From a marine gamma proteobacterium HTCC2089 (lineage in GTDB: Bacteria > Pseudomonadota > Gammaproteobacteria > Pseudomonadales > Azotimanducaceae), in the NCBI GenBank assembly GCA_905182905.1, contig CAJJDH010000098.1, forward strand, positions 1 to 43,237: a stretch of DNA of 43,237 nt, written 5' to 3'. The translations under genes and the position numbers were made by a program. The notes under the pieces are model-generated. The model had not been told where the DNA came from, made no database searches, and saw nothing but the letters and a program-made list of their open reading frames with translations. Of this stretch, positions 30,733-33,668 are shown piece by piece (position 1 is the first letter of the stretch; the number at the start of each line of letters is the position of its first letter).

Positions 30733-31311
30733 ATGACTGAACTGGGTGTAATTCTCATCGGCGCTCTATTGGTCAATAATTTCGTCTTAGCGCAGTTCTT
30801 GGGCCTGTGTCCGTTCATGGGCATCACCAAAAGTTATGACACCGCCTTTGCCACAGGTCTGGCCACGACATTCGTACTCGCACTAGCAGCCGTTATCTCC
30901 CACCTGATTTACCATGGCATTTTAGTGCCGCTTGAGCTGACCTATCTAAACATCATTTTATTTATTGTGGTGATCGCAGGCCTAGTTCAGTTGATCCAAG
31001 TTTATCTCCACGCCACCTCTCCGGTACTACATCAGTTACTGGGCATTTACCTACCACTTATTACCAGCAATTGCGCCGTGTTGGGTGTGACCTTATTGGC
31101 AATCAACCAAGATCTCACATTGCTACAAACCTTAACCTTCGCCATTGGCGCAGCAGCAGGTTTCACTTTAGTAATGGTGTTGTTTGGCGCTCTGCGCGAA
31201 CAGCTGCAACAGGCAAGCATACCCAAAGCCTTCGACGGCACACCTATAGCCTTAGTCAGCGCAGGACTTATGAGCCTTGCGTTTATGGGCTTCCAAGGTA
31301 TTGGTAGCTGA
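30733..31311 (+). CDS. rsxA: Electron transport complex subunit RsxA (RnfA)
   Basis: RsxA is a six-helix inner membrane subunit paralogous to RsxE; the pair form the core of the Rnf/Rsx complex and, in related complexes, hold an iron-sulfur centre between them. The 192 residues match E. coli (193). Family segments [37 protein letters not shown] and [26 protein letters not shown] are clear; the Cys of LGLCPF and of SNCAVLG are the conserved ones. First gene of rsxABDGE-nth, with the rsxB start sharing one base with its stop (TGATG). Confidence 0.97.
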
Positions 31312-32192
31312 TGTTCGGTCCGCTACTCATTGTTTGCGCTTTAGTGATTTTCGCTGCGGGTGTGCTGTGGATTCGCAGCAATGTGACCAAAGACGAAGAC
31401 AGTTTGATTGAGACAATCGATGCACTGCTGCCGCAAACTCAATGTGCCCAATGTGGCTACCCTGGTTGCCGCCCCTACGCCAGTGCCGTTGCCGAGGGCG
31501 TTCCAATAGACTTATGTCCTCCTGGTGGACAAGAACTAGTGATTGCGCTGAGTGATCTAATGGGTGTTGATATTCCTGAGCAAACTGTCGACGAACCGGC
31601 GGCCCTAGTTGCGGTCATTGATGAAACCCAGTGCATTGGCTGTACCTTGTGCCTGCCACCCTGCCCGGTAGATGCAATCATTGGCGCTCAAGGATTCATG
31701 CACACGGTTCTGAGCAAAGATTGTACCGGTTGCGAACTGTGTATAGCCCCATGCCCGGTGGATTGCATCAGCCTTGTCCCAGCCGCTAAAACTGTGCCGC
31801 AAACACCAGCGTTTCAACTTCACGGCAAGGGTTGTATTAATTGTGGCCAATGCGCGCCAGCCTGCCCCAAAGATCTGCTACCGGACCAACTACTGAAACT
31901 TGGCAAAGGGCAACTCTGGGAACAAGCCGGTGCACTGAACCTACAAGATTGTATCGAATGTAGTTTATGTGACAGCGTTTGTCCCAGCGAAATCAATTTG
32001 GCGCAATTTTTTGCCCATGGCAAATCTATTGAGAACAAACGGCTTGCAGAAGATGCAGAGAAACTGCGCATCTTAAATCGCTTCGGAAATCATCAGCGCA
32101 GATTACAAGCTAAAGAAAATGATGTTAGCCAGCGTCGACAACAACGCATGAATGAACGCTTGCAAAAGCTTCAACAAGGCAAGGCTCAATGA
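31311..32192 (+). CDS. rsxB: RsxB fused to the C-terminal di-[4Fe-4S] domain of RsxC
   Basis: RsxB is the iron-sulfur subunit of Rsx/Rnf. Residues 1-22 are a membrane helix. Cys45, 48, 53 and 69 (CAQCGYPGC...LCPPGG) form the first [4Fe-4S] site. Two ferredoxin repeats follow: [16 protein letters not shown] (Cys108, 111, 114, 118) and [16 protein letters not shown] (Cys138, 141, 144, 148). Normal RsxB stops near residue 190. Here the chain continues with [20 protein letters not shown] (Cys175, 178, 181, 185) and [20 protein letters not shown] (Cys214, 217, 220, 224), then a charged helix [18 protein letters not shown]. That part matches the end of RsxC, which in E. coli reads CI.C..C...CP..LLPQQL, DCIECG.C..VCPS.IPLVQ. 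The FMN/NADH body of RsxC is absent. The stop overlaps rsxD (ATGA). Confidence 0.92.
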
Positions 32193-33145
32193 GAGCGCGC
32201 ACGATCATCAAAACACCTAATGTAATGGGTTGGGTTTTAGTCGCACTGTTACCCGGGCTGGCGGGTATGACCTACTATTTCGGCCTCGGGATATTGTGGA
32301 ACCTATTTTTCTTATCAGCCCTTTGTCTTGTCACAGAGTTCGCAGTTATCGCCCTTAGAAATGGCTCGCTTGCTAGCAACCTACTAAAGACCCCGCTGAA
32401 AAATTGCCTTGGTGACGGCACTACCCTACTGGCGGCCTGGCTCATTGCCATTTGCCTGCCGCCCTTTGTCTCAATTCAAATCTTAGCGGTTGCAGCACTT
32501 GCCTCCATTGGCCTGGCAAAACACGCCTACGGCGGCCTCGGTAACAATATCTTTAACCCGGCGATGGTCGGCTACGCGGTAATATTACTCTCCTTCCCCC
32601 AAGCCTTGGCAGCGTGGCCGGCCCTAGGTGGCGCAGAAAGTCTTACTACAGATACTTTGAGCGGCGCAACCTACCTTTCTGAATTTCGTTATCGCGAAGC
32701 AATGACCGTCGATGAATTCTTAATCAACAACCCACAAGTTATTCACCAACAAATCATAGCTGCGCTATTTTTGCTCGGAGGCCTCGGCTTAATTTACCTA
32801 AAAATTATCAGCTGGCGCATTCCATTGACCCTACTCATTACTGTGGGTGTACTGGCCAGCGTTACCTACGATCAGGGCTCAACTCAAAGCTTGGGTTCAG
32901 CTTGGTTTCATTGGACCACCGGCGGCACTGTCGCAGCAGCTTTTTTTGTCGCTACAGATCCAGTAACCCACCCCAGCCGTCATAGCCATCAAGTGATCTT
33001 TGCCATCAGTATAGGAATACTACTGTTTGTAATTCGCACCCAAGGCAACTTGCCGGACGGTATCGCTTTTGCCGTATTGCTCGCAAATTGCGCAACCCCG
33101 CTGCTTAACAGAATCCACCGTCAGCGAGCAAGCCAGCGTGTATAG
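32189..33145 (+). CDS. rsxD: Electron transport complex subunit RsxD (RnfD)
   Basis: RsxD is an integral membrane flavoprotein subunit that carries covalent FMN. The 318 residues (E. coli 352) show about nine hydrophobic helices, the N-terminal [60 protein letters not shown] and [12 protein letters not shown]-like [17 protein letters not shown]. The flavinylation site is DTLSGATYL with Thr161 as the expected acceptor. It starts inside the rsxB stop (ATGA), so no room exists for an rsxC gene, and overlaps rsxG by eight bases at its end. The shorter length comes from trimmed loops. Confidence 0.95.
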
Positions 33146-33668
33146 AACTGTTGCAGCACTCATACTGATCGGCGCAGCTTGTGGCACTTTGCTCTACGGC
33201 ATCAATGCACAAACCTATGGCGAGATCGAAAAAAACAGAACGCAGAAAGCGCGTGAGATTATGCGCAGTCTGCTTAAACAGCCATTACCCGACAAAATCC
33301 AATGGGTAGAAGGAATCAGCGGTTCATGCACTCAAGGCTACTTTCTCAAACGCATTGAAAACGGCTATTCCGGACCTATCAATTTCTTCGCACTCTACCA
33401 ACAAGATGCTTCAAGTGAGGGCGTTAGCAACCCAGAACGTCTTAGCCTTAGAGTCACGCGTCACCAAGAAACTCCAGGCATAGGTGATTTTATTGACCAC
33501 GAGAGAGACAGTTACCTACCTGACCAAGATGGACAATCTGTCGCACAATGGCAGGAACTGGACAATATTGTTGGCGCAACCATTACCCATCGGGCCATAA
33601 AGAAGGCCGCTCAGAACATTCAACTGGCAGTTAAATACCACCAAGAGCAATACGCCTGTGTCGAATAA
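33138..33668 (+). CDS. rsxG: Electron transport complex subunit RsxG (RnfG)
   Basis: RsxG is a membrane-anchored periplasmic subunit with covalent FMN. I chose the GTG at 33138 (176 residues): the family starts with a short run before its single membrane helix (VAALILIGAACGTLLYGINAQT), and the upstream TTG frame at 33069 adds residues without match. The start overlaps the rsxD stop by eight bases. The periplasmic part includes RVTRHQETPGIGDFID, matching the family's HQETPGLGD. The flavin-attachment sequon reads DNIVGATIT with Thr150 as the expected acceptor; Val replaces the usual Ser or Thr before GAT. Overall shorter than E. coli RsxG (206). Confidence 0.92.
   Translation: MYRTVAALILIGAACGTLLYGINAQTYGEIEKNRTQKAREIMRSLLKQPLPDKIQWVEGISGSCTQGYFLKRIENGYSGPINFFALYQQDASSEGVSNPERLSLRVTRHQETPGIGDFIDHERDSYLPDQDGQSVAQWQELDNIVGATITHRAIKKAAQNIQLAVKYHQEQYACVE

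Follow-up and report, generated by a model that had tools for sequence, protein, structure and literature searches.

RNF complexes are defined as ferredoxin:NAD+ pumps, coupled to Na+ or H+, and the rsx operon of the marine gammaproteobacterium HTCC2089 (family Azotimanducaceae) raises the question of what a complex of this kind may do when the NAD site is missing from its sequence. The window (the whole stretch of 43,237 nucleotides that was analysed) is a contig (CAJJDH010000098.1, C98) of a genome of 2.83 Mb in 125 contigs, 94.4% complete. The genes lie on its plus strand in the order metG-rsxA-rsxB/C-rsxD-rsxG-rsxE-nth (Table 1), in which the rsx subunits are recognised by Pfam and NCBIfam profiles and the flanking genes are, judging by their sequences, presumably metG and nth, the latter doubling as a tblastn reference in the classification of loci. 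By sequence, the gene between rsxA and rsxD is an rsxB fused to the 3' end of rsxC, the rest of rsxC apparently having been lost from the operon, whose ORFs are A, B/C, D, G and E only, with no donor gene among them. The probable start of rsxG is a GTG at 33138, where the gene overlaps the last nucleotides of rsxD (33138-33145), and the ORF called mechanically begins at a TTG (33069) within rsxD.

Table 1. Features of the rsx operon in the window, with the evidence for each.
Feature	Position	Strand	Evidence
rsxA, membrane subunit, 192 aa	30733..31311	+	TIGR01943 rnfA 245.5 bits, above cut-off
Fused rsxB/C ORF, 293 aa, intact	31311-32192	+	Translation
RsxB part, residues 1-162	31311..31796	+	NF003475 RsxB E 3e-57 (residues 8-162)
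Variable linker, residues 163-172	31797..31826	+	Residues 161-172 25% identical to nearest relative
RsxC-derived domain, two predicted [4Fe-4S] sites, residues 173-228	31827..31994	+	Tail-only profile matches
RsxC C-terminal long charged helix, residues 229-293	31995..32189	+	Model helix 230-292, block pLDDT 82-98
rsxD, 318 aa	32189..33145	+	TIGR01946 above cut-off; translation
rsxG	33138..33668	+	TIGR01947 E 6e-17, under cut-off
rsxE, 221 aa	33658..34323	+	NF009070 RsxE 248 bits, above cut-off

The original prediction, that a complete RsxB continues into the two-cluster tail of RsxC as one gene, is borne out by the intact reading frame and by its matches to both RsxB and RsxC profiles. The RsxB part passes the TIGR01944 cut-off (190 bits against 68.7) and falls narrowly under the equivalog cut-off of NF003475 (193.4 of 203 bits); it comprises a transmembrane helix at residues 3-24 in the structure model, a first predicted [4Fe-4S] site (C45/48/53/69) and the ferredoxin repeats (C108-118 and C138-148). 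The tail cysteines stand where the original prediction placed them (C175/178/181/185 and C214/217/220/224), and all eight are invariant in 32/32 aligned fused proteins, a set hand-picked for diversity, so that the Cys motifs predict five [4Fe-4S] sites on one chain. The spacing from Cys152 to Cys175 is 22 residues; among 95 fused proteins the distance from the last ferredoxin Cys to the first tail Cys is 19-235 residues, with a median of 24. A charged helix follows the second cluster as predicted (approximately residues 230-292), but the LLPDQL motif, which had been placed after both clusters, lies between them (residues 189-194).

The likeness of the tail to RsxC, as first proposed, is now supported by profiles, by the sequences of solved structures and by the phylogeny of the tail domain. 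Positions 353-483 of the RsxC profile NF003454 match residues 155-289 of the fusion (E 3e-27, or 5e-28 with the tail alone), whereas the best NCBIfam family other than RnfC reaches 1.8e-8, and positions 363-429 of TIGR01945 (rnfC) align to residues 173-239 (E 1e-18, tail alone). A search of PDB sequences with the tail places three solved RnfC subunits first, those of A. vinelandii (8ahx_C, 5.7e-11), C. tetanomorphum (1.2e-9) and A. woodii (2e-9), followed by PsaC (7e-8), and the profile of the 32 fused proteins (171-284) aligns with residues 361-476 of 8ahx_C. In the tree, fused tails from one genus of the family (g37) fall together with that genus's unfused RsxC tails (support 98), other branches being weaker. 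An unrelated polyferredoxin, which was held out as an alternative source of the extension and scores below the RnfC match, is ruled out by the profile scores and the PDB ranking.

An assembly error or frameshift, the other possible refutation, is ruled out by a second assembly (G050) and by the 79 fused loci of the family, since an uninterrupted frame runs from RsxB into the tail both in the window and in every one of these. The fusion in the second assembly is 81% identical over residues 1-291. Among the segments that were compared, amino acid identity is highest in the tail clusters (91%), with 85% in the RsxB core, 72% in the tail helix and 25% in the linker; synonymous sites between the two are near saturation. 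The nearest named relative is the K189A clade MAG NorthSea_HE361-14_B43, which NCBI assigns to the OMG group. An AlphaFold2 model of the single fused chain, built from a 33-row alignment, has a pLDDT of 74 and a pTM of 0.40; in blocks of ten residues, pLDDT is 73-98 from about residue 191 onward and below 50 at 109-150 and 163-176, so most of the ferredoxin repeats and the linker lie below 50 and the relative placement of the two halves is unreliable. A Foldseek search with the whole model ranks RnfB of A. woodii (9eri_B) first, as the sole match under E 0.001, and RnfC of C. tetanomorphum (7zc6_C) fourth (E 0.035), a ranking that weakly supports the likeness to RsxC.

The N-terminal barrel, the FMN/NAD body and the SLBB domain of RsxC are all missing from the fused protein. 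A profile search of the window genome, which is 94% complete, finds no RnfC barrel (PF13375) above the cut-off, and the only TIGR01945 matches are the tail and one weak hit of 18 bits. A hidden rsxC elsewhere in this genome was considered and rejected, the candidates being weak sub-cut-off hits in a 598-aa frame of contig C84 (PF13375) and a 449-aa frame of contig C89 (TIGR01945), which may be a lipoyl-type E2 and NqrA, respectively. TIGR01945 is matched above its cut-off in 19/150 family genomes. Of the 79 fused family genomes, some of which were scored on their first 10 candidates, 76 have no RnfC body by this cut-off; in the exceptions (G030, G044 and G095) a full RnfC lies on a contig other than that of the fusion. 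Neither of two fused genomes that consist of a single contig (G076 and G120) has an RnfC above the cut-off, nor has any of 8 fused genomes from outside the family sample.

The survey of rsx loci proposed with the original prediction indicates that this arrangement is widespread. Among 150 family genomes, 120 gave 121 loci, 12 have no RsxB match, 14 have weak matches only, and G026, G027, G106 and G140 fall outside the locus set. The fused arrangement occurs in 79/121 loci, spanning 19/31 genera of the family; the others have a separate and approximately full RsxC (23), a separate RsxC minus much of its N-terminus (11), a separate stub (6), or a fusion with a large RsxC body (1, in G037), and one lies at a contig end. 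The labels of full and truncated RsxC are rough, being based on tblastn coverage, such that a protein of 342 aa with no barrel (G078) was scored as full and one of 440 aa (G009) as truncated. In samples of 293 genomes of the order and 369 of the class, which overlap and include family members, at least 8 further fused genomes are found among the matches listed (G395, G311 and G282 in the order; G642, G522, G655, G539 and G564 in the class). The fused rsxB of G395 (L268) is almost identical to that of G053 (L080), a genome of a different family; bin contamination, for which the statistics of G395 itself give 6%, is the probable explanation.

Phylogenetic analysis of RsxA, the RsxB core, RsxD and RsxE (LG+G4, quick search, several deep branches weak) requires a minimum of 12 changes of the fused state in 193 rows, 11 in 72 rows and 6 in 52 family rows, counts that could include gene transfer. 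Monophyly of the fused rows as a whole is rejected (p-AU 8e-103), as is monophyly of those excluding g37 (1e-58), a group that was chosen after the trees were seen. In the tail-domain tree, which has many weak branches, the fused tails do not form one separate group. From these sequence comparisons, the fusion seems to have arisen more than once in related bacteria. Two other loci carry an orphan RsxB beside nth, with rsxA, rsxD and rsxE not found in the stretch: in L271 (G520) it is fused to RsxC-like clusters, and in L214, of a betaproteobacterial MAG, it is followed only by a charged stretch.

Within the family there is a graded series of forms, from a degraded RsxC to a barrel-less RsxC, a two-cluster stub, and an RsxB fused to a degraded body. 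Both cluster motifs are intact in 34/34 family RsxC proteins and in the scored RsxC proteins from outside, whereas of six motifs of the NAD/FMN body only 0-3 are found in 33/34 family RsxC proteins, against a mean of 5.47 (range 3-6, n=66) outside the family, a comparison that favours the outside group because the patterns were drawn from outside sequences after the alignment had been seen. The exception (G074) has 6 of 6 body motifs and falls among the outside sequences on the tree. Because this series has decayed motifs where the body remains, the NADH site of RsxC would have decayed ahead of the deletion of the body. The genus g37 alone contains the fused form, the fused form with a body, a barrel-less RsxC of 342 aa and a stub, so that the order of loss can be put to the test within one genus. 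The fusion with a body (L152, G037) is a protein of 499 aa in which RsxB, a large degraded RsxC body and the clusters are joined, the sole such case in 121 family loci. A separate two-cluster RsxC stub of 171-192 aa is found in four loci of family genus g11 (L145, L147, L148 and L151) and in Pseudohongiella (L192); in both L147 and L148 the RsxA-like ORF is devoid of Cys, and the RsxE-like ORF has a single Cys in L147 and lacks it in L148; RsxA of L192 has lost the first ligand Cys and kept the second.

The membrane core of the complex is retained alongside the fused gene. In the window, translation shows both [2Fe-2S] ligand cysteines in RsxA (GLCP, NCAV) and in RsxE (GLCP, NCMI), and the flavin threonines are kept in the SGAT site of RsxD and the FMN site VGATITH of RsxG, although rsxG is below the family cut-off; the genome encodes one ApbE. 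Across the 79 fused family loci, both ligands are present in 71 RsxA (the first is a gap in 2, the second is Arg in 1, and 5 were not found) and in 71 RsxE (the second is a gap in 1, and 7 were not found), and the flavin Thr is present in 75 RsxD (2 gaps, 2 not found); thus the misses in core ligands are gaps, bar the one Cys-to-Arg change in RsxA. The GAT motif of RsxG is present in 73/81 fused loci in and outside the family and was not found in 8, and the fusion begins with an N-terminal hydrophobic segment in 72/79 fused family loci.

In A. woodii the terminal loops of RnfD bind cavities of RnfC, as described in PMC11889175, and a change would therefore be expected in the termini of RsxD where the body of RsxC is gone. 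A motif near the N-terminus of RsxD, SP[HYFW], which would be the RnfC docking loop, is present in 36/42 outside loci with a full RsxC and in 0/44 fused family loci scored, the window included, only loci whose RsxD fitted the pattern having been taken (44 of the 79). The motif occurs in 0/12 family loci with RsxC and in 0/7 with a truncated RsxC, and outside the family it is lacking in three genomes with the fusion (L263 = L159, L266 and L269). L153, L154, L156 and L160 belong to the family and are thus not among these three, and L166, likewise a family member, is left out of the 42 outside loci here and of the 66 outside RsxC proteins above. The median length of RsxD ahead of its first PG is 18 residues in fused family loci versus 29, and the RsxD of the window, with a short N-terminus lacking the motif, has 21. 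Since family loci that still have RsxC show the loss just as fully, it is not tied to the fusion; judged from these sequences, it accompanies the decay of the RsxC body throughout the family, with counts that shared ancestry inflates.

In RNF, the two clusters of RnfC bridge the riboflavin of RnfD and the FMN of RnfC, according to PMC12174285; with the FMN and NAD sites gone, the clusters would become a terminal relay, which fits a soluble one-electron partner. The retention of ligands and the recurrence of the fusion make it reasonably probable that this is an NAD(H)-independent Rsx, in which the RsxC clusters exchange electrons with such a carrier. The U-shaped path would be retained, leading from the RsxB clusters through the [2Fe-2S] cluster of RsxA/E, the FMN of RsxG, and the FMN and riboflavin of RsxD to the two RsxC-type clusters, which would trade single electrons with ferredoxin, flavodoxin or another Fe-S protein rather than NAD(H); the identity of the partner is a guess because the operon holds no donor gene. 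RnfC is described in PMC11889175 as the sole subunit that is not membrane-bound, its C-terminal helix touching RnfB, and fusion to RsxB would thus supply a tether that anchors the orphaned cluster domain, with the long RsxC helix still resting on RsxB. In such a complex, electrons could be driven by the ion gradient from one pool of one-electron carriers to another. More tentatively, it could be a NAD-free Rnf that couples one-electron transfer to the ion gradient and carries its two soluble-side cluster relays on a single polypeptide, moving electrons between two low-potential pools (for example from flavodoxin to ferredoxin) and perhaps boosting the potential of ferredoxin in marine bacteria; it would have evolved repeatedly as the NADH head of RsxC decayed and RsxB took over the clusters.

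The headless complex might instead have stayed linked to NAD(P)H through a separate oxidoreductase, such as a ferredoxin or flavodoxin reductase, that docks on the RsxC clusters, so that only the gene arrangement has changed. Something would have to act in trans in the window, given an operon with no donor gene, and the strong conservation of the tail clusters would also suit a docking site; against this, rsxD comes directly after rsxB in fused loci (gap of -1 nt at the median and 321 nt at most), the distance from rsxD to rsxE (median 552 nt, up to 825) has space for rsxG alone and so for no built-in partner, and the decay of NAD/FMN motifs in bodies that are still present suggests that the use of NADH went first, all of which makes such a linkage unlikely. 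It is harder still to credit that the tail clusters exchange electrons with the ferredoxin repeats of RsxB as a store or a five-cluster wire for which crossing the membrane is no longer obligatory: five sites on one chain and the short spacing between repeats and tail would allow it, but the clusters of RnfB and RnfC are more than 30 A apart in A. woodii, as given in PMC11889175, and a short circuit would offer little explanation for the retention of the [2Fe-2S] and flavin ligands in the membrane subunits.

The complex might also be heading for loss, with the tail as a passive remnant, and further-reduced forms are indeed represented here by Pseudomonas-type loci (discussed below) and the g11 genomes, as well as by a genome of the window's own genus (G070) and 11 others of the 150 family genomes in which RsxB has no match. 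Decay of this kind is very improbable for the fused form itself in view of the eight invariant tail cysteines, the position of the tail clusters as the best conserved segment despite near-saturated synonymous divergence, and the spread of the fused state across loci and genera. An exit of electrons from the riboflavin of RsxD to quinone, as in NQR, with the clusters merely structural, hardly merits consideration, for although RnfD and NqrB share a fold and loss of RnfC cofactors accompanied the origin of NQR (PMC12174285, PMC4014512), the quinone site of NqrB uses two extra N-terminal helices according to PMC12174285, the N-terminus of RsxD in fused family loci is shorter rather than longer, and NqrA lost precisely the clusters that fused loci keep.

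If the preferred reading, an Rsx that works independently of NAD(H), is right, a recurrent and conserved form that keeps the ligands of the core without the NAD site would separate the ion-coupled core from the terminal module and would reveal what the RsxC clusters do alone; the repeated loss of the head in relatives suggests that an enzyme linked to NADH in textbooks may have turned NADH-independent. Neither a fusion of RnfB with RnfC nor a complex lacking the RnfC head is described in the titles and abstract openings of the literature searched, a search with most subscription journals outside its scope. The form also bears on a question posed in PMC12174285, namely why Rsx would spend an ion gradient if NADH alone could reduce SoxR, as NADH is seemingly unused here and SoxR is mostly absent. 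SoxR is matched above the TIGR01950 cut-off in 15/150 family genomes, 5 of them among the 79 fused, and in the window genome by a sub-cut-off hit only. Reduction of SoxR as a general role is rejected on this account; it could still be the role in some fused genomes, those with SoxR including two of the window's genus (G103 and G115). RseC (PF04246) is matched in 80/150 family genomes and not in the window genome (G000); of the 10 other members of its genus sampled, 9 likewise have no match and only G115 has one.

Compared with RNF (RnfABCDGE of Azotobacter RNF1, A. woodii and C. tetanomorphum), the operon of the window shares homologues of A, B, D, G and E, the cofactor ligands and the two-cluster domain of RnfC, but lacks the RnfC body (barrel, FMN/NAD domain and SLBB) and has the cluster domain joined to RnfB. 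Its subunits also match the models of RsxA, RsxB, RsxC (in the tail), RsxD and RsxE, and nth lies downstream of the rsx genes in E. coli as well; in contrast to the SoxR-reducing RsxABCDGE complex of E. coli, the window genome has no SoxR above the cut-off, no RseC match and no RsxC head. The rsxABDGE loci of the Pseudomonas fluorescens/syringae type resemble the window in that no rsxC is found in the stretch, and their RsxB is extended by a charged coil which, on visual inspection, looks like the C-terminus of RsxC, but they lack the tail clusters and the transmembrane helix of RsxB and have lost both ligand cysteines of RsxA and the first of RsxE. In eight such loci (L173, L182, L183, L196, L203, L204, L206 and L216) rsxB is flanked by rsxA and rsxD, nth lies downstream and the stretch has no rsxC, the coil of RsxB is long and free of cysteine, and the ligand cysteines of RsxA are replaced by D and A. 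By their sequences, these loci are in a different and apparently further-reduced state. Na+-NQR differs in that its NqrB has quinone helices, a feature for which the RsxD of the window has no counterpart in the residues before its first PG, and in its NqrF-type subunit, of which the operon has none. NqrA is, according to PMC4014512, a homologue of RnfC that lost its redox role; it kept the body and lost the clusters, and the fusion in the window is the reverse, with the clusters kept and the body lost.
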